Assembly: GCA_021324975.1 (NCBI GenBank)
Contig: JAJPIA010000119.1
Coordinates: forward strand, 1-36,684
Origin: Bacillota bacterium
GTDB taxonomy: Bacteria > Sysuimicrobiota > Sysuimicrobiia > Sysuimicrobiales > Segetimicrobiaceae
Direction: 5' to 3'
Length of the DNA: 36,684 nucleotides
Part shown: positions 15,979-36,428 of the stretch, piece after piece
Layout: each line of letters opens with the position of its first letter
Position numbering within the stretch: the first letter of the stretch is position 1
Position numbers and translations under genes: made by a program
The notes under the pieces: generated by a model
The model's database searches: none
Told to the model about the DNA's origin: nothing
Seen by the model: only the letters and a program-made list of their open reading frames with translations

Positions 15979-17895
15979 CTACACCAGATCCCCGAGCTCG
16001 GCGGGCGGGGCGACCGGCGCCGCGTCCAAGCGCAGTCGCGCCCACACCTCGAACACGAGTAAGCTCCAGAGCCGGCGGCCGAAGTCCTGCCGGCCAGATT
16101 GGTGTTCGTCCAGCATCCACCGCACGAACCGGGGCGTCCACAACCCGCGCCGCTCCGCGATGCCGGCGAGCAGGATCCGGCGCACGTGCGCGCCGGCGGA
16201 GCCGCGCAGCCACCGGCCGATCGGCATGCTGAAGCCGTGCTTGCGCTGGCGCAGCAGCGGCGCCGGCACGAGATCCTGTACCGCGCGCTTGAACAGATAC
16301 TTGGACGTCAGGCCGCGGACCTTGAGGTCGTACGGCAGCGTCGCCGCGTACTCGACCAAGTGGTGATCCAGAAGCGGCGTGCGCGCCTCGAGCGAGTGTG
16401 CCATGCTCATCCGGTCCACCTTGAACAGGATGTCGTCCGGCAGGTAGGCGGATTGATCCGCATGTAGCATGCGCTCGCGGGCATCCTTGACCTCGGCCGT
16501 CGCCAGCAGCTCCCGGAGCGCGGCGGCTCCGTCATGTCCGTTGAGGCGCGCGCGCAGCGCATCACCGTACAGCGATGCGCGAAACGGGGCCGTGACCGTG
16601 GTGCGTCGGAGATACCCGTCTTCCATGGTGCCGGCGATGTCGCTCAGGCCCGTGCGCACACGCCCGGCCCAGCCCCGGGCGGGCACCGGGCGCGTGTCCG
16701 CCGCGACACGGGCAAGCGTGCGCCGGAGCGGCGAGGGCAGCCACGCGGAGGCGCGGCGGAGCTGGTCGCGCGTCGTCCACCCGTAACCGCCGAACAGCTC
16801 GTCGCCGCCATCGCCCGACAGGACGACCTTGACGTGTTGCCGCGCAAGCCGCGACACGGCGAACATCGGCACCGTGGAGTCGTCGGCCATGGGCTCGTCG
16901 AGGTACCAGGCGAGTTGCGGCAGGCGCAGGATCTCCCGATCGTCGAGCACGACCTCATGGTGGTCCGTGCCCCACCGGTCCGCCGCCTGCCGCGCGTACC
17001 CCAGTTCGTTGTACGCCGGGTCGTCGAACCCGATCGAGAAGGTCTTGACGCGCTGGGGCGTCGTGCGGCACATCAGCGCCGTCACCGCCGAGGAGTCGAG
17101 CCCGCCGCTGAGAAAGGCGCCGACCGGGACGTCACTGATCATCCACGCGCGCACGGCGTCCTCGAGTTGCGCTCGTAGGCCGTCGACCGCGTCGGCCTCC
17201 GTGGGCCGCCCGTCGCTCTCGTAGCTGGCGGCCCAGTAGCGATGGAGCCGGCTCCCGCCTCGGGTCCATTCCAGGACGTGGGCGGGCGGGAGTTTGCGGC
17301 ATCCATCCCAGATGGTGCGCGGGGCCGGAACGTAGCCCAGGGTGATGTACTCGTCGAGCGCGTGCAGGTCGAGATCGGGCGCCGACGGGAGTGCGAGGCG
17401 GAGACCGCTGAGTTCCGAGGCAAACGCCAGGCGGCCGCCGCTCTCATGATAGTAGAGCGGTTTGATGCCGAGGCGGTCGCGTGCCAGGATCAGGCGGCCA
17501 CGGGGGCCGTCCCAAATCGCGAGCGCGAACATCCCGCGCAGCGGCGCCGCGCAGTCGAGGCCATACTCCTCGTAGAGGTGCAGAATGACCTCGGTGTCGC
17601 TCGCCGTGGCAAAACGGTGTCCCCGGGCCGCGAGATCGCCGCGGAGCTCGCGATAATTGAAGATCTCGCCGTTCTGGACGACCCACACCGTGCCGTCCTC
17701 GTTGCCGATGGGCTGGTGCCCGCCCGCGAGGTCGATAATGCTGAGCCGGCGGCTGCCGAGCGCGGCGGACGCCCCCACGTACCACCCCTGGTCATCCGGC
17801 CCCCGGTGTACGAGGGCGTCCGTCATACGCCCCAGACACGATCGCTCGTGCTCCGTCAGCGCCCCGTTGGTCACGAGTCCGCAAATCCCGCACAT
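15979..17895 (-). CDS. asnB: Asparagine synthase-like glutamine amidotransferase
   Basis: Two-domain AsnB-family protein of 638 residues. After Met removal Cys2 (MCGICG) is the glutaminase nucleophile; HRGPDDQG (30-37) and NGEIFN (75-80) line the glutamine site. The synthase domain has FLSGGLDSS (261-269), the ATP pyrophosphatase loop, and SGDGGDELFGGY. Glutamine is hydrolysed and ammonia channelled to an adenylated carboxylate. In polysaccharide loci such proteins (WbpS is one known type) amidate uronic acids rather than making asparagine; with a nucleotide-sugar 6-dehydrogenase in the same run, sugar uronamide formation is a reasonable inference. ATG 17895 has GGGAG 7 nt upstream. Plain asparagine synthesis is the alternative. 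Confidence 0.95.
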   Translation of the reverse strand: MCGICGLVTNGALTEHERSCLGRMTDALVHRGPDDQGWYVGASAALGSRRLSIIDLAGGHQPIGNEDGTVWVVQNGEIFNYRELRGDLAARGHRFATASDTEVILHLYEEYGLDCAAPLRGMFALAIWDGPRGRLILARDRLGIKPLYYHESGGRLAFASELSGLRLALPSAPDLDLHALDEYITLGYVPAPRTIWDGCRKLPPAHVLEWTRGGSRLHRYWAASYESDGRPTEADAVDGLRAQLEDAVRAWMISDVPVGAFLSGGLDSSAVTALMCRTTPQRVKTFSIGFDDPAYNELGYARQAADRWGTDHHEVVLDDREILRLPQLAWYLDEPMADDSTVPMFAVSRLARQHVKVVLSGDGGDELFGGYGWTTRDQLRRASAWLPSPLRRTLARVAADTRPVPARGWAGRVRTGLSDIAGTMEDGYLRRTTVTAPFRASLYGDALRARLNGHDGAAALRELLATAEVKDARERMLHADQSAYLPDDILFKVDRMSMAHSLEARTPLLDHHLVEYAATLPYDLKVRGLTSKYLFKRAVQDLVPAPLLRQRKHGFSMPIGRWLRGSAGAHVRRILLAGIAERRGLWTPRFVRWMLDEHQSGRQDFGRRLWSLLVFEVWARLRLDAAPVAPPAELGDLV

Positions 17896-23548: not shown

Positions 23549-24768
23549 CAGGTGCGCTCCGTGGCCGCGGCGCGGACGGGCCGCCACAAGCACGGGATGG
23601 ACATCCACCGCCCGGTTCCTGCGCGGGCCAGCGCCGCCGCCACGGTCAGCGGATCCGTAACAAACGCCCGCCCCGAGGTCGCGGTAGCCACGGAGTACCG
23701 GCGCGCCAGCGCCTGGACGACCGCGATGGTCATCCACAAGGCGCTCCAGGCCGGCCGCTTTTGCCGCGCCAGTTCCACCGGAAGACCAGACGACCGGAAC
23801 ACGCCGTCGAGCACGTTCGTCAGCAGCGCCGTCGCCTGATCCGCGTGCCGCGCCAGCGCCGGCCACGTCTGGTCCGCCAGCGGCAGGGTCCGTAGCGCCA
23901 GGTCCAGATACGAGCTGGGATGTGACAGCATGCGCGGATCCAGCCGCGCCGCCTCGAGAAACAGCTCGACACCGTCCGGCCAGAGGCCGGCCCGGAGACA
24001 CCGTCCCGCCTGGAAGATGGCATGCGTCTTGTACGCCGCGATGCGGAAGCGCTGAGTCAGGAGGCGCGCGGGCAGCCGAGGATCGGCAAAGGTCCGGTCC
24101 AAAACGATCCGGCCGAACACGGCGGTGCGGGCCAGATCCCGGGTCGTGTTCATGCGATGCGCGCGGCACCGTACGAGAACCTCCGGGACGCGCCGGATCG
24201 GCAGACCCGCCAGCGCGATGCGCAGGAAGAGATCCCAATCCTCCCCGAGCTTGAGATCTGGATCGAATCCGCCGACGCGGTTCAGGCATGCCCGTGGGAT
24301 CATGACCATGGGCGGCCCGAAAAAGCACCCCAGGAGCAGCGGCTGCAGCACGTCGCCGTCGTGCGCGGGGATGACCGGTTGCCCCACGACGGCGCCGGTC
24401 TCTTCCATCGCCACGTACCCGTGGTACGCCGCGCCCGCGTCCGCGCTACGCTCCAACGCCTCGACGAGGCGCGCCACCTTGTTTGGAAGCCAGACGTCGT
24501 CGGCATCGAGAAACGCGAGATACGTGCCGTGGCTGTACCGGATGCCGGTGTTCCTGGCGACGGCGGCGCCGGAGTTCGCTTGGGGGATGAGCGTGACGCG
24601 CCCGCCGAACGCCGCGACGCGCTCGCGCGTGTCGTCGGTCGACCCGTCGTCGACGACGATGACCTCCAGGTTGGAGTAGGTCTGGCCCAGAACGCTCTGC
24701 AGCGCCTCCGTGATGAACGGGCCGGCGTTGTACGCTGGGATCACGACGCTGACGAGCGCCCGGGTCAC
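23548..24768 (-). CDS. Family 2 glycosyltransferase, paralogue of its neighbour
   Basis: GT-A transferase of 406 residues with VSVVIPAYNAGPF, VVDDGSTDDTRERV (38-51), SGAAVARNTGIRYSHG, FLDADDVW (87-94) and GEDWDLFLRIALAG. The C-terminal region has GLWPDGVELFLEAARLDPR, then TALLTNVLDGVF and PAWSALWMTIAVVQAL, matching the two related proteins. GTG 24768 overlaps the Wzt stop as GTGA. The catalytic residues are intact. The C-terminal helices may bind a partner or the membrane; no known domain is recognised there. Confidence 0.93.
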   Translation of the reverse strand: MTRALVSVVIPAYNAGPFITEALQSVLGQTYSNLEVIVVDDGSTDDTRERVAAFGGRVTLIPQANSGAAVARNTGIRYSHGTYLAFLDADDVWLPNKVARLVEALERSADAGAAYHGYVAMEETGAVVGQPVIPAHDGDVLQPLLLGCFFGPPMVMIPRACLNRVGGFDPDLKLGEDWDLFLRIALAGLPIRRVPEVLVRCRAHRMNTTRDLARTAVFGRIVLDRTFADPRLPARLLTQRFRIAAYKTHAIFQAGRCLRAGLWPDGVELFLEAARLDPRMLSHPSSYLDLALRTLPLADQTWPALARHADQATALLTNVLDGVFRSSGLPVELARQKRPAWSALWMTIAVVQALARRYSVATATSGRAFVTDPLTVAAALARAGTGRWMSIPCLWRPVRAAATERT

Positions 24769-26060
24769 GGCGAGTATCCCTCCACCGCGGTGACGACGTC
24801 CGGGTCGCCGGTCGTTGCGACATCCCAGGCATGCGCGACATGGATCACGCCGCTCGTGCGAAGCGCGCTCAGCGGCGCCGGGGTGTCCGCGCCGCCGGGC
24901 CCCTCCATGACGCGAAACGTGCCCACGATCTGCCAGTCCACGAGGTCGCCGTAGGCGTGGTCGCCGACTACGCTGCACCACGTCTGGTACACTCGGGGCA
25001 GCAACGGGAGGTTGTGGATCCGGCACGACACCACGGTCGGCCGGTCGATGACGGGCGGGACGTGCCCGTCCACCGCCATTGAACAAATGATCAGGCTCCC
25101 GGGACGCCCGTCGGTGATCCCGAACGCGAAGGCCGGCTGCACGATGGGCCGCGACGGCCGCACCGCAATGCGGATCTCGATGGTATCGCCGGTCCGGAAC
25201 GCCGCGCATTCCGCTCCCGCCGCGTCGTGGAACGAGACGCGCTCGACCGCGAGCCCCCGTCCACGCGGGGCGCCCGTGGAATTCCATCGCTCCTGCTGGC
25301 GGGCGTCAATCCAATCGACGTACGATTGGAGGACCTCGCGGATCGCGCCGTCGTGCTCGATCTGCCCGTTCAGCAGAAAGATGCCGCGCCGGCAGATCGC
25401 CTCGACGGCGGTGAGGTTGTGCGAGACAAACAGGAGCGTTCGCCCCTCGGCGACGAGGCGCATCATCCGCTCGACGCACTTCGCCTGGAAGCCGGCGTCC
25501 CCAACGGCGAGGGCTTCGTCCACGACGAAGATGTCGGGGTCCAGGTGGCTCGCGATCGAGAACCCCAACCGGAGCTGCATCCCGGAAGAGTACCGCTTCA
25601 CTGTTCGATCGAGCACATCGCCGAGCTCGGCGAACTCAACGATCTCGTCGAACCGGCGGTTGATCTCCTGCCGTGACATGCCCATGATGCGGCCGTACAG
25701 CCAGATGTTCTCGCGCCCGGTCAGCTCGGGGTGGATGCCCGATCCCACTTCGATCAGCGCGCCGATGCGGCCGCGCACACGAATGCGGCCCCGTGTCGGG
25801 AACGAGATCCTGGTCAGGAGCTTGAGCGCGGTGGTCTTGCCTGCACCGTTGGGTCCGACGATGGCGAATGCCTCGCCTTCCTTGACGTCAAAGGAGACGT
25901 CGCGCAGCGCAAACGGGTCTTCGGGATCCCGCTTCCTGCGTGTGAGCCGCGCCGCGACGGAGCGTCCCAAACGACTCAGGTCGCCACGCAGCGACGGGTA
26001 GCCCCAGCCGGCGCCCGGGTATTTTTTGCTGACGTCCTCGAATCGGATGGCCCAGCTCAT
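24765..26060 (-). CDS. wzt: Polysaccharide ABC exporter ATPase, Wzt type
   Basis: ATP-binding subunit that drives export of a lipid-linked polysaccharide across the inner membrane. Walker A GPNGAGKT (69-76), signature YSSGMQLRL (157-165), Walker B DIFVVDEAL (175-183) and the switch His in SHN (213-215) are intact. LIEVGSGIHPELTGREN is typical of the Wzt/TagH/KpsT group. Residues from about 265 to 431 form an extra C-terminal domain, as in Wzt proteins that recognise the modified end of the O-antigen. ATG 26060 follows the permease stop by 3 nt. A glycan-binding C-terminal domain is inferred, not seen. Confidence 0.95.
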   Translation of the reverse strand: MSWAIRFEDVSKKYPGAGWGYPSLRGDLSRLGRSVAARLTRRKRDPEDPFALRDVSFDVKEGEAFAIVGPNGAGKTTALKLLTRISFPTRGRIRVRGRIGALIEVGSGIHPELTGRENIWLYGRIMGMSRQEINRRFDEIVEFAELGDVLDRTVKRYSSGMQLRLGFSIASHLDPDIFVVDEALAVGDAGFQAKCVERMMRLVAEGRTLLFVSHNLTAVEAICRRGIFLLNGQIEHDGAIREVLQSYVDWIDARQQERWNSTGAPRGRGLAVERVSFHDAAGAECAAFRTGDTIEIRIAVRPSRPIVQPAFAFGITDGRPGSLIICSMAVDGHVPPVIDRPTVVSCRIHNLPLLPRVYQTWCSVVGDHAYGDLVDWQIVGTFRVMEGPGGADTPAPLSALRTSGVIHVAHAWDVATTGDPDVVTAVEGYSP

Positions 26061-26063
26061 CGG

Positions 26064-26900
26064 TCACACCACATCCGCGAACCCGGGCTCCATGCGTTTG
26101 AACATCCAGTACCCGAACCACGCCACCAGGCACGACACCGCCGTGCTGAGCGCCAAGAGCCCCAGGTCCGGCAGACGCCCCTCTGCGAGCGCGCGGCGAA
26201 ACCCGTCGAGCACGCCGGCGGCAGGGTTGAGCAGGATGTACGCGCCGCGCCACTCCGCGTGCACGGTGCTCAGCGGGTACGCGACAGGGCTGCCGAACAT
26301 CCACAGTTGCAACACCACCGGGAGGACGAACCGAAAATCCCGGTAGTACACATTCAGCGCCCCGAGGATCAACGAGACCCCGGTCGTGAGCACCGCGAGG
26401 ATCAGCCACAGCGGGACCACCATGAGCAGGTTCCACGACAGATGACCGCCGAGCACCGGTTCCAGTACGAGCAGCAGGACGAAGCCGACGGCGAAGTCGA
26501 GTCCCGCGCTCAGCACCGCGCCGAGCACGGGGGTCTCGCGTGGAAAGTAGACCTTGCGCAGGAGCGCACCGTCCATGAGCAGCGCCTGCGCGCCGAACGT
26601 GACGGCCGTCTGCACGAAAAACCAGGGGACCAGGGCGGCGAGCGCAAACGCGGGGTAGGAGGTGCCTCCGCCCGAGATATTGCCCATGCGGCCGAACACG
26701 ACCATGAAGATGCCGAGAAAGATCAGGGGCTGCAGCACGGCCCACAGGATCCCGAGCACGGCTTGCTTGTACTTGACGCGAATATTGCGCTCCGCGAACG
26801 CGAGGACGACCTCGCGAAACGCCCACAGCTCGCGTGCGCGGTCACGGGGACGCGTGTAGTTGGTCGACTCGATGACGAGCTCGATTGCGGTGGCGGCCAT
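26064..26900 (-). CDS. wzm: Polysaccharide ABC exporter permease, Wzm type
   Basis: ABC-2 type membrane subunit of 278 residues. RNIRVKYKQAVLGILWAVLQ near 39-58 is the conserved entry to the first membrane helix, YFPRETPVLGAVLS lies between helices, and NVYYRDFRFVLPVVLQLWMF with SPVAYP is characteristic of Wzm/TagG permeases. Six membrane segments are visible. ATG 26900 has GGAGGAG 13 nt upstream, a little far. A 142-bp gap precedes it, so an internal promoter is possible; none is convincing. It pairs with the Wzt gene just downstream. Confidence 0.95.
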   Translation of the reverse strand: MAATAIELVIESTNYTRPRDRARELWAFREVVLAFAERNIRVKYKQAVLGILWAVLQPLIFLGIFMVVFGRMGNISGGGTSYPAFALAALVPWFFVQTAVTFGAQALLMDGALLRKVYFPRETPVLGAVLSAGLDFAVGFVLLLVLEPVLGGHLSWNLLMVVPLWLILAVLTTGVSLILGALNVYYRDFRFVLPVVLQLWMFGSPVAYPLSTVHAEWRGAYILLNPAAGVLDGFRRALAEGRLPDLGLLALSTAVSCLVAWFGYWMFKRMEPGFADVV

Positions 26901-27042: not shown

Positions 27043-28599
27043 TCAGGAACGCGGATCGGACACGGCCGGCGGCAGGCTCGCAGTCCGGCGGTCTCCGATT
27101 GGCGACCACAGCTCTCGCCGCGGCCGGACTGCGGTGCGCCGCGGCGCCGCGGCGTGCCGCTTGACGGCGAGGCGTTTCCACGGGTTGTCGGCGGTCCGCG
27201 CGAGGAGCAGCCGCGCCGTCCGAGCCGGGGCAAGCGCGCGCCCGGGCGCGGGCGCCGCCTGAGCCGCCGGCCCTGGTAGGATGATGCGCGACAGGGAGCC
27301 AACGATCGCCGCCAGCACGAAGAACGGCCCGCCCGTGTGCGTGGCCGAGACCGAAGCGGCGAAGAGGCTATAGACGGCGTACCCAAGGGTCACGAGCAGG
27401 CCCCCCTGGACCAGGCCGGCGGTCCCGGGATCGGTCGTCGCTCGCGCCATGGCCCGCATCACCCCGAACAGCCTGGCGCCGAAGAACAGAAAGATCGCCA
27501 ACCCGATCAGCCCGGTATAGAAGAGCTGGATCACGTACTCGCTGTCGATGAAGCCGAGCGGTACGCTCCCCATCCCAAGGCCCAGGAGCGGCGAGGCTCC
27601 GAGCGCCCACATCGTGTAGTAGAGCGGCGCCTGGGCCCGGTAAAAAATCGACGTCGGCGCCGTCGACGTCTGGTTGAGCGTGCTCAGGTCGGGCGAGAAC
27701 ACGTTGCCGAGCGTCAGAATCCGGTGGGCCACCCCCTCGGGGTAGACGAGGAACGCCAGGGCCGCGAGCGCCGGCACGGTGAAGAGGATCCACCGCTGTT
27801 CCCGGATGCCGACGTACAGCAGGACGATCAACGTGGCGGCGATGTAGTTTCGGCCAAGCGCGAGCGGCAGCGTCGCCACGGCAAACAACACGATGAGCGT
27901 GAGCGCGAAACGCGCGCGCGGGGTGGCGGCGCTCCGCATCAGCCCAAGCGCGAGCCCGACGGTCACCATCGAGGCCATGCCGGGTTCGTGCACCGGCGCG
28001 CCCTCGGGACCCAGCGCGATCGCCTGGTTGGTGTGAAACTGCCAGGCAGAATACAGACTGAGCGCGACCATGGAGCCGAGGAGCACGTACGTGATCCGGC
28101 TGACATCGGCGAGCGACTCCACGGTGTCCGCGACGATGAGGAAGAGCATGACGAACTCGATCCGCTTGAGGACGTGTAGCGGTGAGCTCTCGTACTTGCT
28201 CACAGCGGTGAGATGCACGGTCCCGAGCGCGGCGCCCCAGATCGTGGCCGCGATGCTGACGAGGACGTAGGCGAGCAGGATGCGGTCGAACGGCGTCGCC
28301 CGGCGGGTCCTGGCGACGCACAGGTGCGCCAGCCATCCGACGGTCAGCGGCACCATCATCAGGTCCTCGATGCGCACCGCGACGCCGTGGAGCGGGAGCT
28401 CCGGCGACAAGATCATGGCCGGCACGATGAGGTACAGCGCGATCTTGGGGTTGAAGAGCGTCACGACCGCCACGCCCGCCGCGACGAGTCCAAGCAGCGC
28501 GCGCGACCCCGGGAGGACGATGCTGCCGAAGGCCACGGCGGCACCAAGCCCCAGGGCGAGCAGCAGCGTCGCCCGCGCGGCCGAAGCGTGTGCCCTCAT
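27043..28599 (-). CDS. O-antigen ligase/polymerase-like membrane protein
   Basis: Polytopic protein of 518 residues with about eleven to twelve hydrophobic segments and a large loop near 300-345, the layout of the O-antigen ligase (WaaL)/Wzy superfamily. GMGSVPLGFIDSEYVIQLFY in the second half resembles the LGxGxG...H/D-N region that follows the periplasmic loop in this group. It could polymerise repeat units or ligate glycan to an acceptor. The last 70 residues are a basic, Arg/Ala/Pro-rich cytoplasmic tail that is not part of the family. ATG 28599 is used; the ribosome site is weak. It lies 61 bp after the dehydrogenase stop. Confidence 0.8.
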   Translation of the reverse strand: MRAHASAARATLLLALGLGAAVAFGSIVLPGSRALLGLVAAGVAVVTLFNPKIALYLIVPAMILSPELPLHGVAVRIEDLMMVPLTVGWLAHLCVARTRRATPFDRILLAYVLVSIAATIWGAALGTVHLTAVSKYESSPLHVLKRIEFVMLFLIVADTVESLADVSRITYVLLGSMVALSLYSAWQFHTNQAIALGPEGAPVHEPGMASMVTVGLALGLMRSAATPRARFALTLIVLFAVATLPLALGRNYIAATLIVLLYVGIREQRWILFTVPALAALAFLVYPEGVAHRILTLGNVFSPDLSTLNQTSTAPTSIFYRAQAPLYYTMWALGASPLLGLGMGSVPLGFIDSEYVIQLFYTGLIGLAIFLFFGARLFGVMRAMARATTDPGTAGLVQGGLLVTLGYAVYSLFAASVSATHTGGPFFVLAAIVGSLSRIILPGPAAQAAPAPGRALAPARTARLLLARTADNPWKRLAVKRHAAAPRRTAVRPRRELWSPIGDRRTASLPPAVSDPRS

Positions 28600-28660: not shown

Positions 28661-29989
28661 TCAGAGCCGGACCACGTGCGACGCCCGGTAGTCGTGCAGC
28701 CGGTTGCGCGTGTCGATGATCAGCGGAGCGCGCGCGACGATGCGGTCGTAGTCGATCCCGCTGTGATCCGTCGTGAGGATGACGCAGTCCACGTCCGCGA
28801 GCATCTCGTCCGTGAGCGGCTGCGACCGGATCGTTCCCGGGTTGGCCAGCGTGATCTCCGGCACGTGCGGGTCGTGATAGGATACCGACGCGCCGCGCTT
28901 GTGGAGCAGTCCCAGGACCTTGAGCGCGGGCGACATCCGCACATCCGGGATGTCGCGCTTGTAGGCCACGCCGAGCAGCAGCACCCGTGAGCCCCACAAC
29001 GTCTTGCCCTTGGCCTCCAGCGCCCCCGTCGTCCGCGAGACGACATAGTACGGCATGCTGTCGTTGACCGTGGCGGCGAGCTCGATGAAGCGGGCGTGGA
29101 AGTCGTACTCGCGGGCCTTCGCCGACAGATAGTACGGATCGACGGGAATGCAATGCCCGCCGACGCCGGGCCCGGGATAGAAGGGCATGAACCCGTACGG
29201 CTTCGTCGCCGCGGTCTCGATGATCTCCCAAACGTCGAGCGACATGCGATCGCAGAGCAGCGTCAGCTCGTTCACGAGCGCGATGTTGACGTTGCGGAAC
29301 ACGTTCTCGTACACCTTCACCATTTCGGCGACCGTAGGAGAGGACACGGGCACAACCGTGTTCGCGATCTGCTCGTAAAAGGTCCGCGCGACCTGCGTTG
29401 ACGCCGGCGTGACACCGCCCACCACTTTGGGGATCGAGCGCAGGCTGTACCGCCGGTTGCCGGGATCGATCCGCTCAGGCGAAAATGCCAGTGCGAAATC
29501 CGGTCCGGCCTGGAGCCCGCTCGTCTCCAGAATCGGCTTCACGACCTCCACCGTCGTGCCCGGATACGTGGTGCTCTCCAGGACGACGAGCGTGTCGCGC
29601 CGCATCGCCGGCACGCACGCGTGAGCGGCGGCGATCACGTGGGACAGGTCCGGTTCCTTGCTTTTCGTGAGCGGCGTCGGCACGCAGATGATGATGACGT
29701 CCGCGTCCCGCAGCGCGCCGTAGTCCGTCGTCGCGCGGAGCCGCTCGGCGCCGACGACGCGGTCCAGCGCCTCCTCGGTGACGTCGCCGATGTAGGACCG
29801 GCGGCCGTTGACCATCGCGGCCTTGTCCTCATCGATCTCGATGCCCACGACGGGGAACCCGGCCTCGGCGGTCTCGACCGCGAGGGCAAGGCCGACGTAC
29901 CCGAGGCCGATCACTCCGACGCGCGCCGTGCGCATGCGAATTTTCGAGTCCAGCCCCGTGACGTGCTCCTGCGTTGTTACTGCGTCCAC
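28661..29989 (-). CDS. Nucleotide-sugar 6-dehydrogenase (UDP-HexNAc/UDP-glucose type)
   Basis: NAD-dependent enzyme that oxidises C6 of a UDP-sugar twice to a uronic acid. GLGYVG (28-33) binds NAD; Lys225 and Asn229 sit in AEMVKVYENVFRN, and Cys280 in GGHCIPVDPYYL is the catalytic thiol. The N-terminal LDSKIRMRTARVGVIGLG matches WbpA/WecC-type UDP-N-acetylhexosamine dehydrogenases more than short UDP-glucose dehydrogenases, which supports GTG 29989 (442 aa); ATG 29935 is the alternative. It starts 8 nt after the co-polymerase stop. Its uronic acid product would be the natural substrate for the AsnB-like amidotransferase. Confidence 0.93.
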   Translation of the reverse strand: MDAVTTQEHVTGLDSKIRMRTARVGVIGLGYVGLALAVETAEAGFPVVGIEIDEDKAAMVNGRRSYIGDVTEEALDRVVGAERLRATTDYGALRDADVIIICVPTPLTKSKEPDLSHVIAAAHACVPAMRRDTLVVLESTTYPGTTVEVVKPILETSGLQAGPDFALAFSPERIDPGNRRYSLRSIPKVVGGVTPASTQVARTFYEQIANTVVPVSSPTVAEMVKVYENVFRNVNIALVNELTLLCDRMSLDVWEIIETAATKPYGFMPFYPGPGVGGHCIPVDPYYLSAKAREYDFHARFIELAATVNDSMPYYVVSRTTGALEAKGKTLWGSRVLLLGVAYKRDIPDVRMSPALKVLGLLHKRGASVSYHDPHVPEITLANPGTIRSQPLTDEMLADVDCVILTTDHSGIDYDRIVARAPLIIDTRNRLHDYRASHVVRL

Positions 29990-29997
29990 GAAACGTC

Positions 29998-32160
29998 TTA
30001 CCTCCGCGTGAGATTCACCAGCGACGGTGCGTTGGAAGCCGGCTGCGCCAGCGCCCGGTCCGCGGCCCCGCTCGAGTGGAACCACAACCACAGGCCGACC
30101 GTGAGCCCGCCGGCGGCGACGAGCAGCGCGAGGCTCGTGGTGGCGGCCGCCGGCGCGATCCGGGCCACGGCGCGATTCCTGTAGAAGTACTCCTGGTAGT
30201 AATAGCTGTCGACGAGGTCCGGCCGCACCTTGCTTAGGACCGAACCGATGACCGGCGTGCCGAGCCGGTCGAACTGCAGCTTCACTTGCTCCTCGATGCC
30301 GCGCGGCGCGCGGCTGCCGTCCAGGACGATCAGCGCGCCGGATGCCAGCGGGGCCAGCGCGTACACATCCGCGAACGCGCCCGCGGACGACGTGTCGACG
30401 AGGATGACGTCGGCGCGCTGGCGCAGGTCTGCCAGCACCGACGCCATCGCCGCGGACCCCAGCTGCATGCCCATGTCGGACGTGCGCTCCGCGCCGCTTG
30501 TGACCAGCCACAGGTTCGGCTTCACCGGCATCAGGATCTCCGGGAGTGTGGCGGTTCCGGCCAGGACCTCGGCGACCCCTTTCTCGTTGGCGACGTTGAA
30601 CAGGGCGTGCTGCACCGGCTCGCGCAGCGCGGCGTCGACGACCACCGTGCGTTGTCCCGCTGCAGCGAACGCCTGCGCCAGGTTGGAGACGACCGTCGAC
30701 GTTCCCGAGCGCGGCTGGGGGCTCGTGACCGCGATCACGACGCCGCCGCCGTCCGCCGGCTCGCGCGCCAGGAGATTGACGGTCAGCAGGCGGTAGGCCT
30801 CGTCGAACGGCGGGTTGTGCCGGGGGATGGCGACGAGGGCCGGTACCCCGAGCAGGCGCTCCGCCATCTCCGGCGTCTTGATGCTGGTATCCACATACTC
30901 CAGGAAGAACGCGAGCCCGATCCCGCCGAGCAGCCCGAGCACACCCGCCAGCGTGAGTTTGAACGGCTTCCCGGAGAACGGTGAGGCGAACGCGTGGCTG
31001 GCGTGATCCAGGACCGTCAGGGCCCCGAGGCTCTGCATCTCCTGCTCGCGCACGCGGGCCTGGGCAAGCTGGCCTTCAAGGTTCGCCACCTGGGTCGTCA
31101 GGATCTCCGCGGTGCGGTTTAGCCGCGCCGCGTCGAGTTGAGTCTGCGCGACCGTGGGCAGGTGCTGCGTGGCCTCGGTGATGGCCTGCTGGATCGCCTG
31201 TTTGCGCGCCTCGAGCGCGATCTGATCGGTTTGCGCGGCGATCCGGTTCATCGCCAGCGCCTCGTACATCGGGGTGTGCTGCCCCTGGTTCGTGGCCGCG
31301 ATTTTCTGCAGTTCCGTGTTGAGGCGGCCTTTGACCGCGTCGATCTGCGCCTTCAGGGCGACGACCGCGGGATAGGCGTCCGTGTGCACCGACAGCTGGG
31401 CCGCGAGCTGCACTTCGAGCTGCACGAGCTCGGCGCGAAGTTGCTGCGTGACGGCGTTGTCCTGGAGCTGCGCGGGCGCGCTCCCCGCCGCCTGCATCTG
31501 CGAGGTGTACGACGCGATCTTCGCGTTGGCTTCCTGCAGCGCGAAGTCGTTTTGCTGCGCCTCGGCCTGGAGCGCGCCGATCTGGGCGCTCTGGCCGGAC
31601 GCGAGCGCCACGCCGTTCCTCTGCTGGTACGCGAGCAGGGCGTCCTCCGCCGCGCGAAGGTTGGTCTGCGCGTCGGCGAGCTGCTTCTCGATGAACTCGC
31701 GGCCGAGCGTGGATTCGCGGCGCTGGACATCCTGGCTGAACGCCGCGGCGTTGTCGACGATGGCGTTTGCGAGCATCACGGCCGCGGCCGGCGTTGGTCC
31801 CTTGGCGGTGACTCGAAGCATATCGCCGCTCGGGTCCTGCTGCACGGCGACGCGGGTGGTGAGGTCCTCGGGAGTGAATCCGAGCTGGAGCTGCTGGATG
31901 GCGCGTGTCGCGACGTCCCGGCTCCGCACGAGGTTGATCGCGAGCTGGATAAGTTGATCGGACGTCGGCATGGGGCCGGAGCCCACGTTCGCGATGAAGA
32001 GGAACTGGGACGTGGCCGGTACCGACATCGTCGCGACCGCCGCGTAGTCATCGGTGCCGGGCCGCGCGCCGACGAGCCCCACACCGATCGCCGCGGCCAT
32101 GGCCACCACAATGACCACCCAGCGCTGACGGAGCACCCGGTAGTATCGCCAGAATTCCAT
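29998..32160 (-). CDS. Wzc-like polysaccharide co-polymerase with degenerate BY-kinase domain
   Basis: Inner-membrane protein of 720 residues that would set chain length and couple synthesis to export. Wzz-type N-terminus: membrane helix about 12-32, long coiled coil about 145-385, FSGKPF (395-400), second helix about 402-420. The kinase-like domain follows, but Walker A reads SPQPRSGTST (480-489), without the GxGK lysine; Walker A' reads VVVDAALREP, keeping one of two Asp; Walker B is ILVDTSS. A tyrosine cluster, YYYQEYFY (653-660), remains. A third hydrophobic helix (about 671-694) follows it, which is not normal for the family. ATG 32160 has AGGAGG 9 nt upstream. Probably a pseudokinase. 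Confidence 0.92.
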   Translation of the reverse strand: MEFWRYYRVLRQRWVVIVVAMAAAIGVGLVGARPGTDDYAAVATMSVPATSQFLFIANVGSGPMPTSDQLIQLAINLVRSRDVATRAIQQLQLGFTPEDLTTRVAVQQDPSGDMLRVTAKGPTPAAAVMLANAIVDNAAAFSQDVQRRESTLGREFIEKQLADAQTNLRAAEDALLAYQQRNGVALASGQSAQIGALQAEAQQNDFALQEANAKIASYTSQMQAAGSAPAQLQDNAVTQQLRAELVQLEVQLAAQLSVHTDAYPAVVALKAQIDAVKGRLNTELQKIAATNQGQHTPMYEALAMNRIAAQTDQIALEARKQAIQQAITEATQHLPTVAQTQLDAARLNRTAEILTTQVANLEGQLAQARVREQEMQSLGALTVLDHASHAFASPFSGKPFKLTLAGVLGLLGGIGLAFFLEYVDTSIKTPEMAERLLGVPALVAIPRHNPPFDEAYRLLTVNLLAREPADGGGVVIAVTSPQPRSGTSTVVSNLAQAFAAAGQRTVVVDAALREPVQHALFNVANEKGVAEVLAGTATLPEILMPVKPNLWLVTSGAERTSDMGMQLGSAAMASVLADLRQRADVILVDTSSAGAFADVYALAPLASGALIVLDGSRAPRGIEEQVKLQFDRLGTPVIGSVLSKVRPDLVDSYYYQEYFYRNRAVARIAPAAATTSLALLVAAGGLTVGLWLWFHSSGAADRALAQPASNAPSLVNLTRR

Positions 32161-32232
32161 GCGTCTAACCCTCCTCGATCGTTTCACCGCGGCGCACCGA
32201 CCGCGCCGCGGGTCCTCGACGGTCGGCTCGTC

Positions 32233-33348
32233 TCACTTCACGAACCACACGAGCCAGCCCAGGCCTCCGAGCGTGTTGAGGAACGCGTTCCAGATGGGAT
32301 GCTGTCCCTGCTCCGGCACGTAGACGATGTCCCCCGGCTGCAGCTCGACGTTCTGCGTCATGTCGCCCTTCATGTAGAACTTGGTCAGGTCGACCTGGGT
32401 CACGGTCGGCTTGTTTGGGGCGGCCGCGGTGTTCGCCTGGACGGGGTGCCGGATGATGCCGACGTCTTTGAGCTGTGCGCCCTGCGCCGAACCGCCGGCC
32501 GCGGAGAGCAGGTCCACCAGGCGGTCGCCGGGGTTGATTACGTACGCGCCCGGCCGCGCCACGGCGCCCATGAGCAGCACGCGATCGCGTCCCTGGGGCA
32601 CCATGATGACGTCGCCCGGCTGCACCTGCGTGTTCGCCTGGGTGTTCCCGTCGACGAGCAGGCTCTGGAGGTCGATTGGAATGGTCTGCGACTTCCGCAT
32701 GATGAAGGCGTGCGTCAGTTCCGCGCTTGGAGTCGGACCGCCGGCCGCGGCGACGGCGCCGGCGATCGTGAGGCCGTCCTGCATCTGGTACGCGCCGGGC
32801 CGCCCCACCTGCCCCAGCACGTACACAAACTGCTGGCGCGACGCGGTCTGGGAAATCGTGATCGAGACCTGCGGCTCACGAATGTAGGTCTTGAGCGCCT
32901 GGGTCACGCGGTCCGTGAGCTGCGGCAGGGTGGCGCCGGCCGCGGGGATGCGCCCCACGAGCGGCATCTGGATCGCGCCATCCGGGCTCACGGTGACGGC
33001 GCCGGTGACCTCCGGTTCCCCGACCACCGAGATTTGGAGCACGTCCCCCGGCTGCACCGTGTACGGCTGGCCGGCTTGGCCGGACTGCGGCCCTGGACCG
33101 ACGGGCGCCTGAGTCGCTGCGCCGGGGGAGGACGGCGGCACGGACTGCTCGCCGGACGGAGGCGTCCCCGGTTGCTGTCCGGATGGGGGTGTCGCCGGTT
33201 GCTGTCCGGATGGGGGGGCGCCGACCTGCGGCGGCGGCGGCCCCATATAGACCGGCGCCGAGGCCGCGGGGCCCGCGGCCGCAAGCATCACCACAAGCGC
33301 CAATCCCGGCGCGGCGTGCCTCCGCAACAGTTGTCGTACGTGCTTCAT
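32233..33348 (-). CDS. Wza-like polysaccharide export protein
   Basis: Periplasmic or outer-membrane export component of 371 residues. A Sec signal peptide (1-31) ends in PAASA; there is no lipobox Cys, so it is not a Wza-style lipoprotein. A Pro/Gly-rich spacer with three 9-residue repeats is at 44-72. The polysaccharide export domain starts at YTVQPGDVLQISVVGEPEV (95 onward), and two SLBB domains follow: VLGQVGRPGAYQM and LMGAVARPGAYVI mark their starts. The end, LGGLGWLVWFVK, is hydrophobic and may be the membrane-inserting helix. ATG 33348 has GGAGG 9 nt upstream, inside the end of the preceding small gene. The first classical capsule gene of the run. Confidence 0.92.
   Translation of the reverse strand: MKHVRQLLRRHAAPGLALVVMLAAAGPAASAPVYMGPPPPQVGAPPSGQQPATPPSGQQPGTPPSGEQSVPPSSPGAATQAPVGPGPQSGQAGQPYTVQPGDVLQISVVGEPEVTGAVTVSPDGAIQMPLVGRIPAAGATLPQLTDRVTQALKTYIREPQVSITISQTASRQQFVYVLGQVGRPGAYQMQDGLTIAGAVAAAGGPTPSAELTHAFIMRKSQTIPIDLQSLLVDGNTQANTQVQPGDVIMVPQGRDRVLLMGAVARPGAYVINPGDRLVDLLSAAGGSAQGAQLKDVGIIRHPVQANTAAAPNKPTVTQVDLTKFYMKGDMTQNVELQPGDIVYVPEQGQHPIWNAFLNTLGGLGWLVWFVK
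33141..33221 (-). repeat. 27-bp tandem repeats in the Wza-like gene
   Basis: Two almost identical 27-bp units (33168-33194 and 33195-33221) and a diverged third (33141-33167) encode PPSGQQPAT, PPSGQQPGT and PPSGEQSVP. They make a flexible spacer between the signal peptide and the export domain. Near identity of two copies suggests recent expansion, so length may vary between strains. Confidence 0.8.
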
Positions 33349-33350
33349 GA

Positions 33351-33560
33351 TCACTCGCCTCCACTGTCGAGATCCGAAGCCTCCGGCTTCTGCTCGTCTA
33401 AGATCCACCACAGTTCCCGGCTGCCCGAGGACGTGGGCGCGAGATACAAACCCTGCACGCGCCAGATCGACGACTGATACGCGAACGCCGAACCGATCGG
33501 CCATTGCGGATGCTGTGCCCCGCCGTGCTTCTCGTTCAGCTTGACGTGTCGTTCCGCCAT
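33351..33560 (-). CDS. Small conserved-looking protein of unknown function (69 aa)
   Basis: Not a family I recognise. It starts at ATG 33560 with a strong GGAGGGG 3 nt upstream and ends 2 nt before the Wza-like ATG, whose ribosome site lies in its last codons, so the two are coupled. The protein is soluble and Trp/Tyr-rich: HPQWPIGSAFAYQSSIWRVQ (17-36), then LYLAPTSSGSRELWWILDEQ (39-58), and an acidic end. There is no signal peptide or membrane segment. The paired aromatic stretches suggest a small beta-rich fold. Place and coupling suggest a role in regulation or assembly of export. Real gene likely; function unknown. Confidence 0.72.
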   Translation of the reverse strand: MAERHVKLNEKHGGAQHPQWPIGSAFAYQSSIWRVQGLYLAPTSSGSRELWWILDEQKPEASDLDSGGE

Positions 33561-33629
33561 CGTCCCCTCCGTTCTGCGTGTCGCAGACGCGCCTGGTCGC
33601 GTGCTCTGCCTTACCGGGGATGCGGCCGC

Positions 33630-34304
33630 CTAGGTGATCAGGCGGTTCTTGAGCACGTACACGACCGCTTGCGTGCGGTTTCGGGCGCCGATCTTGCGGA
33701 AGATGGAGCGAATGTGGCTCTTGACCGTGGTGGTGCTGACGAAGATCTTGTTCGCGATCTCGCGATCCGTCGCGCCCTTGCTCATCTCGAGCAGGATTTC
33801 GAACTCGCGGGTCGTGAGGCCGCCGAGATGCGTGCCGTCGGTCTTGGTCTGTTCGCGGGCCAGCGTGCGGAATCGCTCGACGAGCTGGCGGGTCACGTGC
33901 GGGTGGATCAGGGTGCGGCCGTTGCACACGCCCTCCACGGCCCGGGCCAGATTTTCCGGCGTGATGTCCTTAAGCACGTAGCCGGTCGCGCCGGCCTCGA
34001 GCGTCCGGAACGGCTTCTCGTCGTCCGCGCCCTCCGCCAGCACGATGATCTCGGACTTGGGGTGCCGGGCCTTGATGAGCTTGATCGCCTCGATGCTGTC
34101 GAGCCCGGGCATGTCCTGGTCGAGCAGGATCACATCGGGCTGGAGCGTTGCGGCGAGCTCCGTGGCCTCTTCGGCGCTCGAGGCCTCCCCCACGAACTCA
34201 ATGGTGCTGCGTTTTTCCAAAAAGCTCTTGATGCCCTGACGCATCAGGGTCGTATCGTCTACCACGAGCACGCGCACTTTGGATGCCGTCCTGCTGGTCT
34301 CCAC
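33630..34304 (-). CDS. NarL/LuxR-family response regulator
   Basis: Transcription factor of 224 residues. Receiver domain: acidic pair Asp16-Asp17 in VVDDTT, phosphorylated Asp62 in LLDQDMPG, Lys112 in GYVLKD. The Thr/Ser normally at the end of the fourth strand is Ala90 (IIVLAEG), which may weaken the phosphorylation switch. A LuxR-type helix-turn-helix spans about 160-224: LTTREFEILLEMSKGATDRE and STTTVKSHIRSIFRKIGARN. GTG 34304 is preferred because AAAGGA lies 9 nt before it. It is first in the export run, followed after 69 nt by the 69-aa gene, so it may control its own operon. Its kinase is probably the divergent one. Confidence 0.95.
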   Translation of the reverse strand: METSRTASKVRVLVVDDTTLMRQGIKSFLEKRSTIEFVGEASSAEEATELAATLQPDVILLDQDMPGLDSIEAIKLIKARHPKSEIIVLAEGADDEKPFRTLEAGATGYVLKDITPENLARAVEGVCNGRTLIHPHVTRQLVERFRTLAREQTKTDGTHLGGLTTREFEILLEMSKGATDREIANKIFVSTTTVKSHIRSIFRKIGARNRTQAVVYVLKNRLIT

Positions 34305-34864
34305 TGGGAACCGTCCTTTGTCCCATGGTATTGGCTCTGGGAGATTTGCTTCTAATGGAGGAGCCATTGGCGGGCATCTACCGCCGCACCCACGTTCTGT
34401 TGGAGAGTCCTGGTAGGTTTTTTGAAGGAAGCGTCCCACATTTGGATGCGAACATACGTTGCCGTCATTGGGAAAATGGTTCTCTTTTGAACGGGAACAC
34501 CGATGACGGCATCCGCGATCATGAGACGGATTCATTTATTTTGTATTGCTAAACAATCATGCCATGTAGCGGTTTCTCAATCGGCACGTGTCGCTCCGTG
34601 CTATAATGTGTTGAATGTGTCGGCCGAAAGTCGATGTTCACCCGCGGCCGGAGGGAGGACGTCGTACCGGCATCGCCATCATTTGATGACGAATACCACG
34701 TATCGCCTGCGGGATATTCTCTCCTCGCCAATGCCTGCGCGCCATGGCCGAATGGTCATTCTTCTGATGCACAACAGGAACACGCTCGTGCCGGACTGTG
34801 AGCGCTTGTCGCCGGAAAAGCTCACCATCATGGTCACCATGTTCCCCAAAACGGGTATGTCATA
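34305..34864. other. 560-bp divergent regulatory region
   Basis: Lies between the start codons of the minus-strand regulator and the plus-strand kinase and is visibly less GC-rich than the rest, above all around 34525-34560. It holds an extended -10 promoter on the plus strand (34599-34607) and a small candidate gene (34686-34865). I found no convincing minus-strand promoter, although one must drive the regulator and probably the whole export run. No riboswitch or clear terminator was recognised. Confidence 0.6.
34599..34607 (+). promoter_or_regulatory. Extended -10 promoter element
   Basis: TGCTATAAT is a perfect TGnTATAAT extended -10 for a housekeeping sigma factor, in an otherwise GC-rich sequence. 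No good -35 lies 16-18 nt upstream, as is common for extended -10 promoters. Transcription would begin near 34614 and read the small gene, kinase and second regulator. Leader to the kinase start: about 250 nt. Confidence 0.6.
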
Positions 34865-34865
34865 A
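34686..34865 (+). CDS. Candidate small gene overlapping the kinase start (59 aa)
   Basis: Open frame starting MTNTTYRLRDILSSP and ending in VTMFPKTGMS, with its TAA sharing one base with the kinase ATG (TAATG). G or C fills about three quarters of third codon positions by my count, while the surrounding sequence is less GC-rich, which favours coding. Against it, no ribosome site lies at normal distance before ATG 34686; a GGAGG is roughly 30 nt upstream. The protein resembles nothing I know and has no signal or membrane segment. It may be a leader peptide coupling translation to the kinase. Confidence 0.4.
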   Translation: MTNTTYRLRDILSSPMPARHGRMVILLMHNRNTLVPDCERLSPEKLTIMVTMFPKTGMS

Positions 34866-35614
34866 TGGGGCTGATAATGGGACGCAACGGCGCACGATCT
34901 ACCCGCAACCATCGTTCGGACGACCGAGCGGGATCTGACGGCCGGGTCGAAGCCTCATCGAGCACGGAGGAGCGTTTGCTCCGGGTTGCCTTTGAAATCC
35001 ACAACGGTCCGGCCCAGTGCCTGGCAACCGCGCTCGCGCTGCTGCGCGCGCTCGATCGCCGCCTGCCGCCCGAGATGACCGAAGCGCGCGAATCGCTGCG
35101 GGCGACCATCGGCAGCACCGAGACCGCCTTGGAATCGACCCGCCGGGCCATTGGAATGCTCCGTGCCTCACGCCCGGACCGCGCGCGGGCGTCGCTGGCG
35201 TCGCACCTGCAGGACGCGCTCGATGAGGTTCGTCCGCACACGCAGGCGGCGCTGTCACTCGACGTGCCGCCGCTGGATGACGTGCCGAGCGCGATTGTGA
35301 CGGGGCTTGCGGAGGTGGGGCGCGAGGCGCTCGCGAATGCCGCGCGCCATGCCGCGGCGAGGCACATCTCGGTGCGCGTGCAGCGCGCCCGCCACGCCGT
35401 CGTGCTGGAGGTCAAGGACGACGGCAATGGATTCGAGGGCGGCCGTCCCGGCGGGTTTGGGCTCGCGCTCATGCACGACCAGGTGCGCCTGCTGGGCGGC
35501 ACGCTGCACATTCGGAAGGGTCCGGTCGAGGGCACGCTGGTCAGGGCGACCATTCCGCTGCCGGAGCGGCTGGGCGCGCCGGGACGGCGGATGCGGCGCG
35601 CCGCCTCCGCGTGA
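34865..35614 (+). CDS. Soluble NarX/DesK-type sensor histidine kinase
   Basis: HisKA_3 histidine kinase of 249 residues that would phosphorylate the neighbouring NarL-type regulators. The dimerisation region carries the phosphorylated His46 in FEIHNGPAQCLATALALL. The ATP-binding domain has the N-box EVGREALANAARHA (Asn158), DDGNGF (185-190) and GGFGL (196-200), followed by VRLLGGTLHI. No membrane segment or sensor domain is present; the first 34 residues are polar, so the signal must come from a partner or be intracellular. ATG 34865 overlaps the candidate small gene; ATG 34877 is an alternative. The second regulator follows after 28 nt, so the two are co-transcribed. Confidence 0.93.
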   Translation: MGLIMGRNGARSTRNHRSDDRAGSDGRVEASSSTEERLLRVAFEIHNGPAQCLATALALLRALDRRLPPEMTEARESLRATIGSTETALESTRRAIGMLRASRPDRARASLASHLQDALDEVRPHTQAALSLDVPPLDDVPSAIVTGLAEVGREALANAARHAAARHISVRVQRARHAVVLEVKDDGNGFEGGRPGGFGLALMHDQVRLLGGTLHIRKGPVEGTLVRATIPLPERLGAPGRRMRRAASA

Positions 35615-35642
35615 GACCTTCTCCCGAAACGGGGGCCATTTG

Positions 35643-36428
35643 ATGACGATTCGTCTCTTGATCGTCGACGATCAGAGCCTGACCCGCGTGGGCCTGCGGG
35701 TCGTGCTCCAAGAAGCCGCGGATGTCGAAGTGGTGGGCGAAGCGGAGAGCGGTCCGGAGGCAGTCCGGCTCGCGGCGCAGCTCAACCCAAACGTCGTGCT
35801 CATGGATCTCAAGATGCCTGGCGGTGACGGCATCGAGGCGACACGCGCGATCAGACAGGAGTGCCCGGCGACCCAGGTGCTGATCTTGACCGTCTACAGC
35901 GAACCGGGGTTGTTTCGCAAGGCGATCGCCGCGGGCGCGGTAGGGTACGTGCTCAAGGACATCTCGCCGGAGAACATGATCCGCGCGATTCGGGCGGTGC
36001 ATCAGGGCCGCACCATGATCAACACGAATATCGCCCGGCAACTGCTGGAGGACCTGGCGAGCAATGGATTCGGCACCGAGCCGGTCAGGCGGGGCCTCCA
36101 TGGCCTGACCGACCGCGACCTCGAAGTCCTCGTCGAGGTGGCCCGCGGTCTCGCGGACAAAGAGATCGCCGCCAAGCTCTTTCTCTCGGAGTCGACCGTG
36201 AAGAGCCACCTTCGCTCGATCTACCGCCGGTTGGGCCTTAGAAACCGCGCCCATGCAGCGGCGTGGGCCATCGAAAAGAACCTCCTTCAGCCGCAGACTG
36301 CGTGGCCGCGGCCGGACGCCGACGATAACCCGGCCCCTATCGCCGTGCCAAAGGATGCCCCGTCGCAAGGCAACGCCGCCGGGTCGCGCACCGCAAAGCC
36401 GGGCCGCGCGTCTCCTGCGACCGATTAG
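35643..36428 (+). CDS. NarL/LuxR-family response regulator with C-terminal tail
   Basis: Transcription factor of 261 residues. Receiver domain has all key residues: Asp9-Asp10, phosphorylated Asp55 in VVLMDLKMPG, Thr83 in LILTVYS, and Lys105 in GYVLKD. The LuxR helix-turn-helix spans about 150-212 (LTDRDLEVLVEVARGLADKE, ESTVKSHLRSIYRRLGLRNR). The last 45 residues are Pro/Ala-rich, disordered in appearance and absent from typical NarL proteins. ATG 35643 is the natural domain start; upstream in-frame sequence lies inside the kinase gene. It resembles the divergent regulator closely, pointing to duplication with divergence. Targets unknown, likely the polysaccharide locus. Confidence 0.95.
   Translation: MTIRLLIVDDQSLTRVGLRVVLQEAADVEVVGEAESGPEAVRLAAQLNPNVVLMDLKMPGGDGIEATRAIRQECPATQVLILTVYSEPGLFRKAIAAGAVGYVLKDISPENMIRAIRAVHQGRTMINTNIARQLLEDLASNGFGTEPVRRGLHGLTDRDLEVLVEVARGLADKEIAAKLFLSESTVKSHLRSIYRRLGLRNRAHAAAWAIEKNLLQPQTAWPRPDADDNPAPIAVPKDAPSQGNAAGSRTAKPGRASPATD

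Follow-up and report, generated by a model that had tools for sequence, protein, structure and literature searches.

The window analyzed here, i.e. the whole stretch of 36,684 nucleotides, encodes a fused Wzc-type polysaccharide co-polymerase (PCP-2a): to judge from its sequence, the protein comprises a Wzz-type N-terminus, two transmembrane (TM) helices around a large periplasmic region and a C-terminal BY-kinase-type domain. On balance we favor the view that this domain is a conserved BY pseudokinase and that the protein is probably a nucleotide-binding, membrane-anchored assembly scaffold, which would operate without a Tyr-phosphorylation cycle. The loss of the Walker A Lys throughout the clade under selection, the predicted third TM helix shared by most members and the finding of no intact BY-kinase in the profile search of the genome together make a phosphorylation-free co-polymerase the likelier reading.

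Domain organization

Residue numbers refer to the 729-aa ORF that opens with GTG (32187-29998, minus strand); subtraction of 9 gives the numbering from the ATG. This ATG (32160), chosen in the initial annotation, is the better start because the alignment of orthologues begins at M10 (MEFWxYYR). The profile search of the protein reported PF02706 (Wzz) with 26.7 bits, above the cut-off of 25.5. The best NCBIfam match of the co-polymerase is the XrtA-type family TIGR03007 (residues 17-457, 124.7 bits, below the cut-off of 278.85), and TIGR01007 matches residues 483-667 with 100.4 bits, below its cut-off of 108.05. Despite the presence of Wzm and Wzt in the cluster, the protein is not a member of the PCP-3 (BexC/CtrB/KpsE) family TIGR01010 (34.3 bits, cut-off 437.5). 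The PDB entries nearest by sequence to the kinase domain are CapB (2.5e-25), Wzc, VpsO, Etk and BceF; the BY-kinase fold is assigned by this homology, as the predicted structure has a mean pLDDT of 37.4, too low to use.

Features of the PCP-2a protein and its gene cluster (positions in the window; residues in the 729-aa numbering)
Feature	Position	Strand	Basis or remark
PCP-2a gene with BY pseudokinase domain (proposed)	29998..32160	-	720 aa from ATG; GTG start at 32187 possible
TM1, residues 23-41	32065..32121	-	Hessa-type hydropathy
Periplasmic region, residues 42-410	30958..32064	-	Wzz match 12-100 and XrtA-type chain-length match 17-457; predicted topology
TM2, residues 411-429	30901..30957	-	hydropathy
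BY-kinase-like domain with Tyr tail, residues 456-670	30178..30822	-	TIGR01007 and PDB matches
EX2RX2R ring-interface motif, residues 463-469	30781..30801	-	here EAYRLLT, third R missing
Walker A without Lys, residues 490-498 (PQPRSGTST)	30694..30720	-	alignment, conservation
Walker A', residues 515-524 (VVVDAALREP)	30616..30645	-	D518 kept, second Asp lost
Walker B, residues 593-601 (DVILVDTSS)	30385..30411	-	D598 kept
Tyr cluster, residues 661-670 (SYYYQEYFYR)	30178..30207	-	sequence
Probable third TM helix, residues 682-701	30085..30144	-	end-weighted hydropathy
OPX (Wza-type) gene, upstream of PCP	32233..33927	-	Poly_export, SLBB; mechanical ORF, true start later
UDP-sugar dehydrogenase	28661..29947	-	start approximate; mechanical ORF runs to 30511
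10-TM protein, Wzy/O-antigen-ligase-like by orthologues	27043..28599	-	hydropathy, orthologue matches
ABC exporter permease (Wzm-like)	26064..26900	-	profile match
ABC exporter ATPase (Wzt-like)	24765..26060	-	profile match
PF00953 initiating transferase	1706-2701	-	profile match

Conservation of the altered, presumed nucleotide-binding site

The initial annotation described a dead-looking kinase, and the motifs that it listed (RSGTST, loss of one Walker A' Asp, DTSS and the Tyr cluster) are all found in the ORF translation. Within 490-PQPRSGTSTV-499 the Walker A Lys is replaced by T496 (RSGTST vs GxGKST), in Walker A' the second Asp is replaced by A520 with D518 retained, and in Walker B the retained D598 belongs to DTSS, with SS in place of PP. 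Five Tyr residues are present in the tail.

The orthologue search, carried out in 41 genomes of the order and then in 43 genomes of the order/phylum (the same 43), yielded 13 complete orthologues (own protein included), which come from nine of the 12 own-family genomes and from four of the seven that belong to family f4. As for the other own-family genomes, G008 has just an N-terminal fragment, located where a contig ends, and neither G003 nor G009 gave an orthologue match at 1e-10; a 97% identical relative is carried by JAJPJL010000007.1. In a tree of 22 rows, a branch supported by 100/99 separates the 13 Lys-less orthologues from the other rows. The position of the Walker A Lys is Thr in 12 of them and Ser in one, G495, S497, T498, D518, D598 and Y662 are invariant in all 13, and the number of Tyr residues in the tail ranges from one to five, the own genus having retained the cluster of five. 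The second Walker A' Asp (position 520) is retained in three orthologues and lost in ten, including the own protein, and positions 600/601 after Walker B are variable, SS being found in the own genus only. Hence, as regards the losses initially listed, that of the Lys is a trait of the clade and that of the second Asp mostly so, and the SS of Walker B is not.

The P-loop residues 495-499 form the second most conserved of the 211 five-residue windows of the domain, and the codons of T496 vary synonymously among the orthologues. Purifying selection acts on the BY-kinase domain in all pairs analyzed; the domain is more constrained than the periplasmic part in the own genus only (L001/L004: kinase domain dN 0.0064, dS 0.234; periplasmic part 0.022, 0.285; L001/L005: 0.062, 0.98; 0.173, 1.106). 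In L012/L013 the two parts are alike (0.070, 0.539 vs 0.054, 0.335), and in L014/L015 the ratio is lower in the periplasmic part (0.046, 0.275 vs 0.019, 0.202). One might suspect recent decay, or an assembly error, confined to this genome, as the window is a draft contig and the genome (96% complete) has 4.75% contamination; however, the 13 orthologues come from separate genomes and concordantly share the change, no orthologue with an intact Lys was found among them, and dN/dS is low. This explanation was ruled out, its probability being practically nil.

Among 29 BY-kinase-like proteins of the order, the P-loop Lys is present in 10 (L017-L023, L026, L027, L032) and absent in 19 (the 13 orthologues, the own second copy L003, and L024, L025, L028, L029 and L031); this ratio is no census, because the proteins were picked as best matches to the query. 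Lys-less P-loops recur in the order, since the stand-alone BY-kinase-like proteins L024, L025, L028 and L031 are also without the Lys (GATTT, GSSTT). Outside the order, the kinase domain matches 442 plasmid records, 13 of which were read for taxonomic spread among the 40 listed: 11 keep the Lys, the one from Nostoc has Arg and the one from Thermomicrobium is degenerate, and a GTST P-loop is found in none of these 13.

Nucleotide binding versus catalysis

The Ser (S497) and the two Asp (D518, D598) are presumably the residues that bind the Mg-nucleotide in BY-kinases. On that reading, the residues lost would be the catalytic ones and those kept would be the binding ones. The Lys loss behind the label "dead-looking" is clade-wide, but the label itself is overstated, as the putative binding residues are invariant and Lys-to-Met mutants of Wzc and CapB bind ADP-Mg: Wzc K540M, a mutation at a site where change abolishes phosphorylation, is described as an octameric ring with bound ADP-Mg (PMC8285477), and the crystals of CapA1B2(K55M), likewise an octameric ring, are reported to contain ADP-Mg though none had been added (PMC3795738). 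According to the latter report, octamers of isolated BY-kinase domains are hard to observe in solution, inactive mutants included. In both mutants the Lys is replaced and the rest of the nucleotide site is kept; a natural Lys-to-Thr replacement of this kind would be expected to leave the domain nucleotide-bound, silent and octamer-competent. The present proteins differ from these mutants in that the change is natural, conserved in 13 orthologues and to Thr instead of Met, and in that the second A' Asp is usually lost too.

An alternative is a nucleotide-free scaffold, as proposed for EcpK, with the fold kept for contacts and the P-loop for structure or as a protein interface. It has precedents in EcpK and HfsB (PMC12004946) and agrees with the loss of the Lys and of the second A' Asp; however, EcpK is reported to have lost all three Walker motifs and the C-terminal Tyr (PMC12004946), and here G495, S497, T498, D518 and D598 are the same in 13/13. 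We regard a nucleotide-free domain as unlikely.

The opposite alternative is an active enzyme independent of the Lys, in which another basic residue substitutes and which still hydrolyzes ATP or phosphorylates the Tyr cluster. Loss of the Lys is no proof of inactivity, given that TadZ is cited as an active ATPase without both lysines, a Lys of a neighboring helix compensating (PMC10482377); BcsQ has the P-loop RGGVGTT, also without the conserved Lys (PMC9178275, Table 1). The Tyr residues are kept in the present proteins, and R641 is Arg in 13/13 orthologues and in 0/7 Lys-bearing relatives of the order. However, this position is also Arg in two Lys-bearing plasmid BY-kinases, so that R641 is no clear replacement of the Lys and was set aside as a compensating base, being only a lead. 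Moreover, the second A' Asp is lost in 10/13, the Tyr number drops to 1-5 per 30 tail residues in the 13 orthologues vs 3-7 in the Lys-bearing relatives with a tail, and the third helix should restrain the tail. Continued catalysis therefore appears quite improbable to us, although the five-Tyr cluster of the own genus and the invariant Y662 speak against the pseudokinase reading. L010, L012 and L013 match the Pfam family CBP_BcsQ below the cut-off.

Other kinases and phosphatases of the genome

TIGR01007 has seven matches in the own genome, of which two are BY-kinase-like (107.9 and 104 bits) and five score 38 bits or less; two of these lesser matches proved on reading to be ParA-like, and the other three score no more than 27.7 bits. 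No intact BY-kinase was found among the matches above 27.7 bits. The second Wzc-like protein (L003, G000:C109:4156-6333) has GEGTAM and VVLAGAP in the respective motifs, i.e. neither the Walker A Lys nor the Walker B Asp. The L003 gene adjoins a Wzx and a Wzy_C gene.

Trans-phosphorylation of the Tyr cluster by some other cellular kinase would agree with the persistence of the cluster in the own genus and with the LMW-PTP genes elsewhere in the genome (three matches, none on this contig). However, the BY-type search of this 96% complete genome offers only one further candidate, and a CpsB/CapC-type phosphatase was found nowhere in the genome by profile search. Because the only other BY-kinase-like protein found in that search is itself Lys-less, trans-phosphorylation by a second BY-kinase was rejected, and we hold modification by any other kinase to be very improbable. 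Of the two halves of the initial suggestion, a phosphorylation-free or trans-phosphorylated type of chain-length control, the first is the likelier as regards a phosphorylation-free co-polymerase, with chain-length control as a putative role; the second is not supported as far as another BY-kinase is concerned.

The third hydrophobic segment

A third hydrophobic helix after the Tyr cluster, also proposed initially, was recovered by our TM score, an end-weighted sum of Hessa-type values (end weighting our own). In the own protein, segment 682-701 scores 0.28, near TM1 (-0.08) and TM2 (-0.03), compared with 4.07 for the most hydrophobic kinase segment. The Kyte-Doolittle scale alone would not decide the matter, as it gives a higher value to kinase segment 604-622 (1.79) than to the C-terminal segment (1.68); the Hessa-type scale separated them. 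A segment scoring 0.28 or less follows the Tyr region in 10/13 orthologues; that of L011 is weak (2.76), and L012 and L013 end without one. Lys/Arg are commoner on the N side in 9 of the 11 proteins having a segment (equal in L010 and L011), which favors an N-in, C-out orientation. The Lys-bearing relatives with a long enough extension score 23.25 (L022) and 11.06 (L027), unlike a helix; L017, L018, L021, L023, L026 and L032 (Lys-bearing) are too short to score. The last 60 residues of the 13 plasmid BY-kinases from other taxa all score 5.5 or higher, with no like segment.

The segment could instead be a buried or surface-lying helix, leaving the topology ordinary. Its modest hydrophobicity in the own protein, the higher Kyte-Doolittle value of the kinase segment and the C-terminal helix of EcpK, which is thought to lie on the membrane (PMC12004946), are consistent with this. 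On the other hand, the hydrophobicity is kept in 10/13 orthologues despite diverged letters, at a level comparable to TM1 and TM2, and the plasmid BY-kinases have nothing like it. We consider a non-membrane helix rather unlikely and a third TM helix probable after the kinase domain in most of the clade (10/13). As the predicted helix starts about 12 residues past the last Tyr, the tail would hardly be able to reach a neighbor's active site as in Wzc.

Two further variations were observed. In L012 and L013 (about residues 230-310) a short segment stands in place of the periplasmic coiled coil, and the pseudokinase part is retained. To us this segment seems reminiscent of GspC/PilP domains, although it has no Pfam match to a domain of that type. 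In L010 the predicted third helix is followed by about 200 further residues, a repetitive C-terminal extension rich in Gly, Ala and Val.

Gene neighborhood

An ABC exporter (Wzm/Wzt) is encoded in the own cluster, and the contig gave no match to a Wzx family. Flanks were fetched for 10 relatives: the PCP gene is followed by the UDP-sugar dehydrogenase in 10/10 and preceded by an OPX match in 8/10 (not in G019 and G022), and the gene of the 10-TM protein lies in the stretch in 9/10, the contig of G028 stopping before it. Wzm and Wzt are present in six of the 10; the contigs of G010 and G028 stop too early to show them, and in G004 and G031 they are absent from the stretch and a Wzx-type flippase is found on the same contig. 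The exporter beside the conserved block thus seems exchangeable. The own 10-TM protein has no relevant Pfam match. Its syntenic orthologues in G001, G004, G006, G019 and G022 match Wzy_C below the cut-off, and that of G031 scored 34.8 bits, above the cut-off, in one run and 30.6, just below it, in another. The pathway may resemble a Wzy system whose exporter can be exchanged, or it may be ABC-dependent and use a ligase.

Two other proteins encoded in the window match XrtA/PEP-CTERM-system families below the cut-off, namely an amidotransferase (15979-17895, minus strand; 627.1 of 816.9 bits) and the OPX protein (167 of 180 bits). The operon is flanked by two LuxR-type response regulators and a histidine-kinase-like ATPase domain (33630-34535, minus strand; 34865-35614 and 35307-36428, plus strand), and regulator matches recur beside the orthologous clusters.

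Comparison with known systems

With Wzc of E. coli the protein shares the single chain with an N-terminal TM helix, periplasmic region, TM2, BY-kinase fold (by sequence), Tyr tail and OPX neighbor; it differs in that the Walker A Lys and usually the second A' Asp are missing, a third TM helix is probable and no linked phosphatase was found. The idea of a BY pseudokinase is already published, both for stand-alone and for fused proteins. EcpK with EpsV and HfsB with HfsA combine a BY pseudokinase with a PCP-2, the former having the fold without the catalytic residues, and scaffolding without phosphorylation has been proposed for them (PMC12004946); those pseudokinases are stand-alone, whereas the present one is fused. 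SMc01795, Mlr8439, BCETI_6000729 and VV1_2305, here compared by description only, are fused PCPs with a non-catalytic BY-kinase domain (PMC12004946), as is PssP2, which is reported to have two TM helices and to lack Walker A, A' and B and the Y-cluster (PMC4182512). BcsQ and TadZ, ATPases of the MinD/ParA type, share the P-loop without the conserved Lys (PMC9178275, PMC10482377), but are not fused to a co-polymerase and belong to different systems. PslE was considered as a Lys-less parallel and dropped: PDB alignments leave its P-loop unsettled, and a search of the PslE paper gave no mention of a kinase. Searches of the open-licence PMC literature brought up no fused PCP in which a GxG[TS]ST P-loop is conserved or a third TM helix is present. 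What appears to be new, with the fused PCPs of the SMc01795 type compared by description only, is the conserved Lys-to-Thr P-loop, the predicted third helix and the cluster with an ABC-type exporter in some relatives and Wzx in others.

Proposed mechanism and implications

Autophosphorylation of Wzc is said to be essential for polymerization (PMC8285477), which implies that the present clade has either dispensed with the cycle or replaced it. In the scaffold that we favor, the Gly and Ser/Thr of the P-loop, together with the first Asp of Walker A' and the Asp of Walker B, would probably hold a Mg-nucleotide as a structural ligand in spite of the missing Lys and, usually, second A' Asp. The kinase ring would be unphosphorylated and octamer-competent, like the Lys-to-Met mutants of Wzc and CapB, and the tail would be tied to the membrane by the predicted third helix in most members. 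The co-polymerase would then link the OPX channel to the inner-membrane exporter and the Wzy-like protein with no need of a Tyr cycle, any turnover presumably being driven by the binding of nucleotide or partners. EX2RX2R is described as the ring-interface motif (PMC3795738), and the lack of its third R in the own protein may weaken the ring.

Wzc leaves wide side portals between its TM pairs (PMC8285477). We speculate, and hold it to be a fairly unlikely elaboration, that the protein could form a permanently assembled envelope conduit, with the nucleotide as a structural ligand, no phosphorylation and eight extra C-terminal helices that anchor the ring and fill portals of the Wzc type, so that glycan would pass from the ABC exporter (Wzx in some relatives) to the OPX without a phosphorylation clock.

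The clade bears on the question of whether Wzc-type proteins must cycle through phosphorylation or need no more than the assembled ring. It resembles natural counterparts of the kinase-dead laboratory mutants, with the presumed binding residues kept, the catalytic ones lost and the tail apparently tied to the membrane. If our interpretation is true, these proteins would offer a ready-made way to test the effect of nucleotide binding by itself in a co-polymerase, and would carry the pseudokinase idea, already published, over to a fused protein whose P-loop is under selection.
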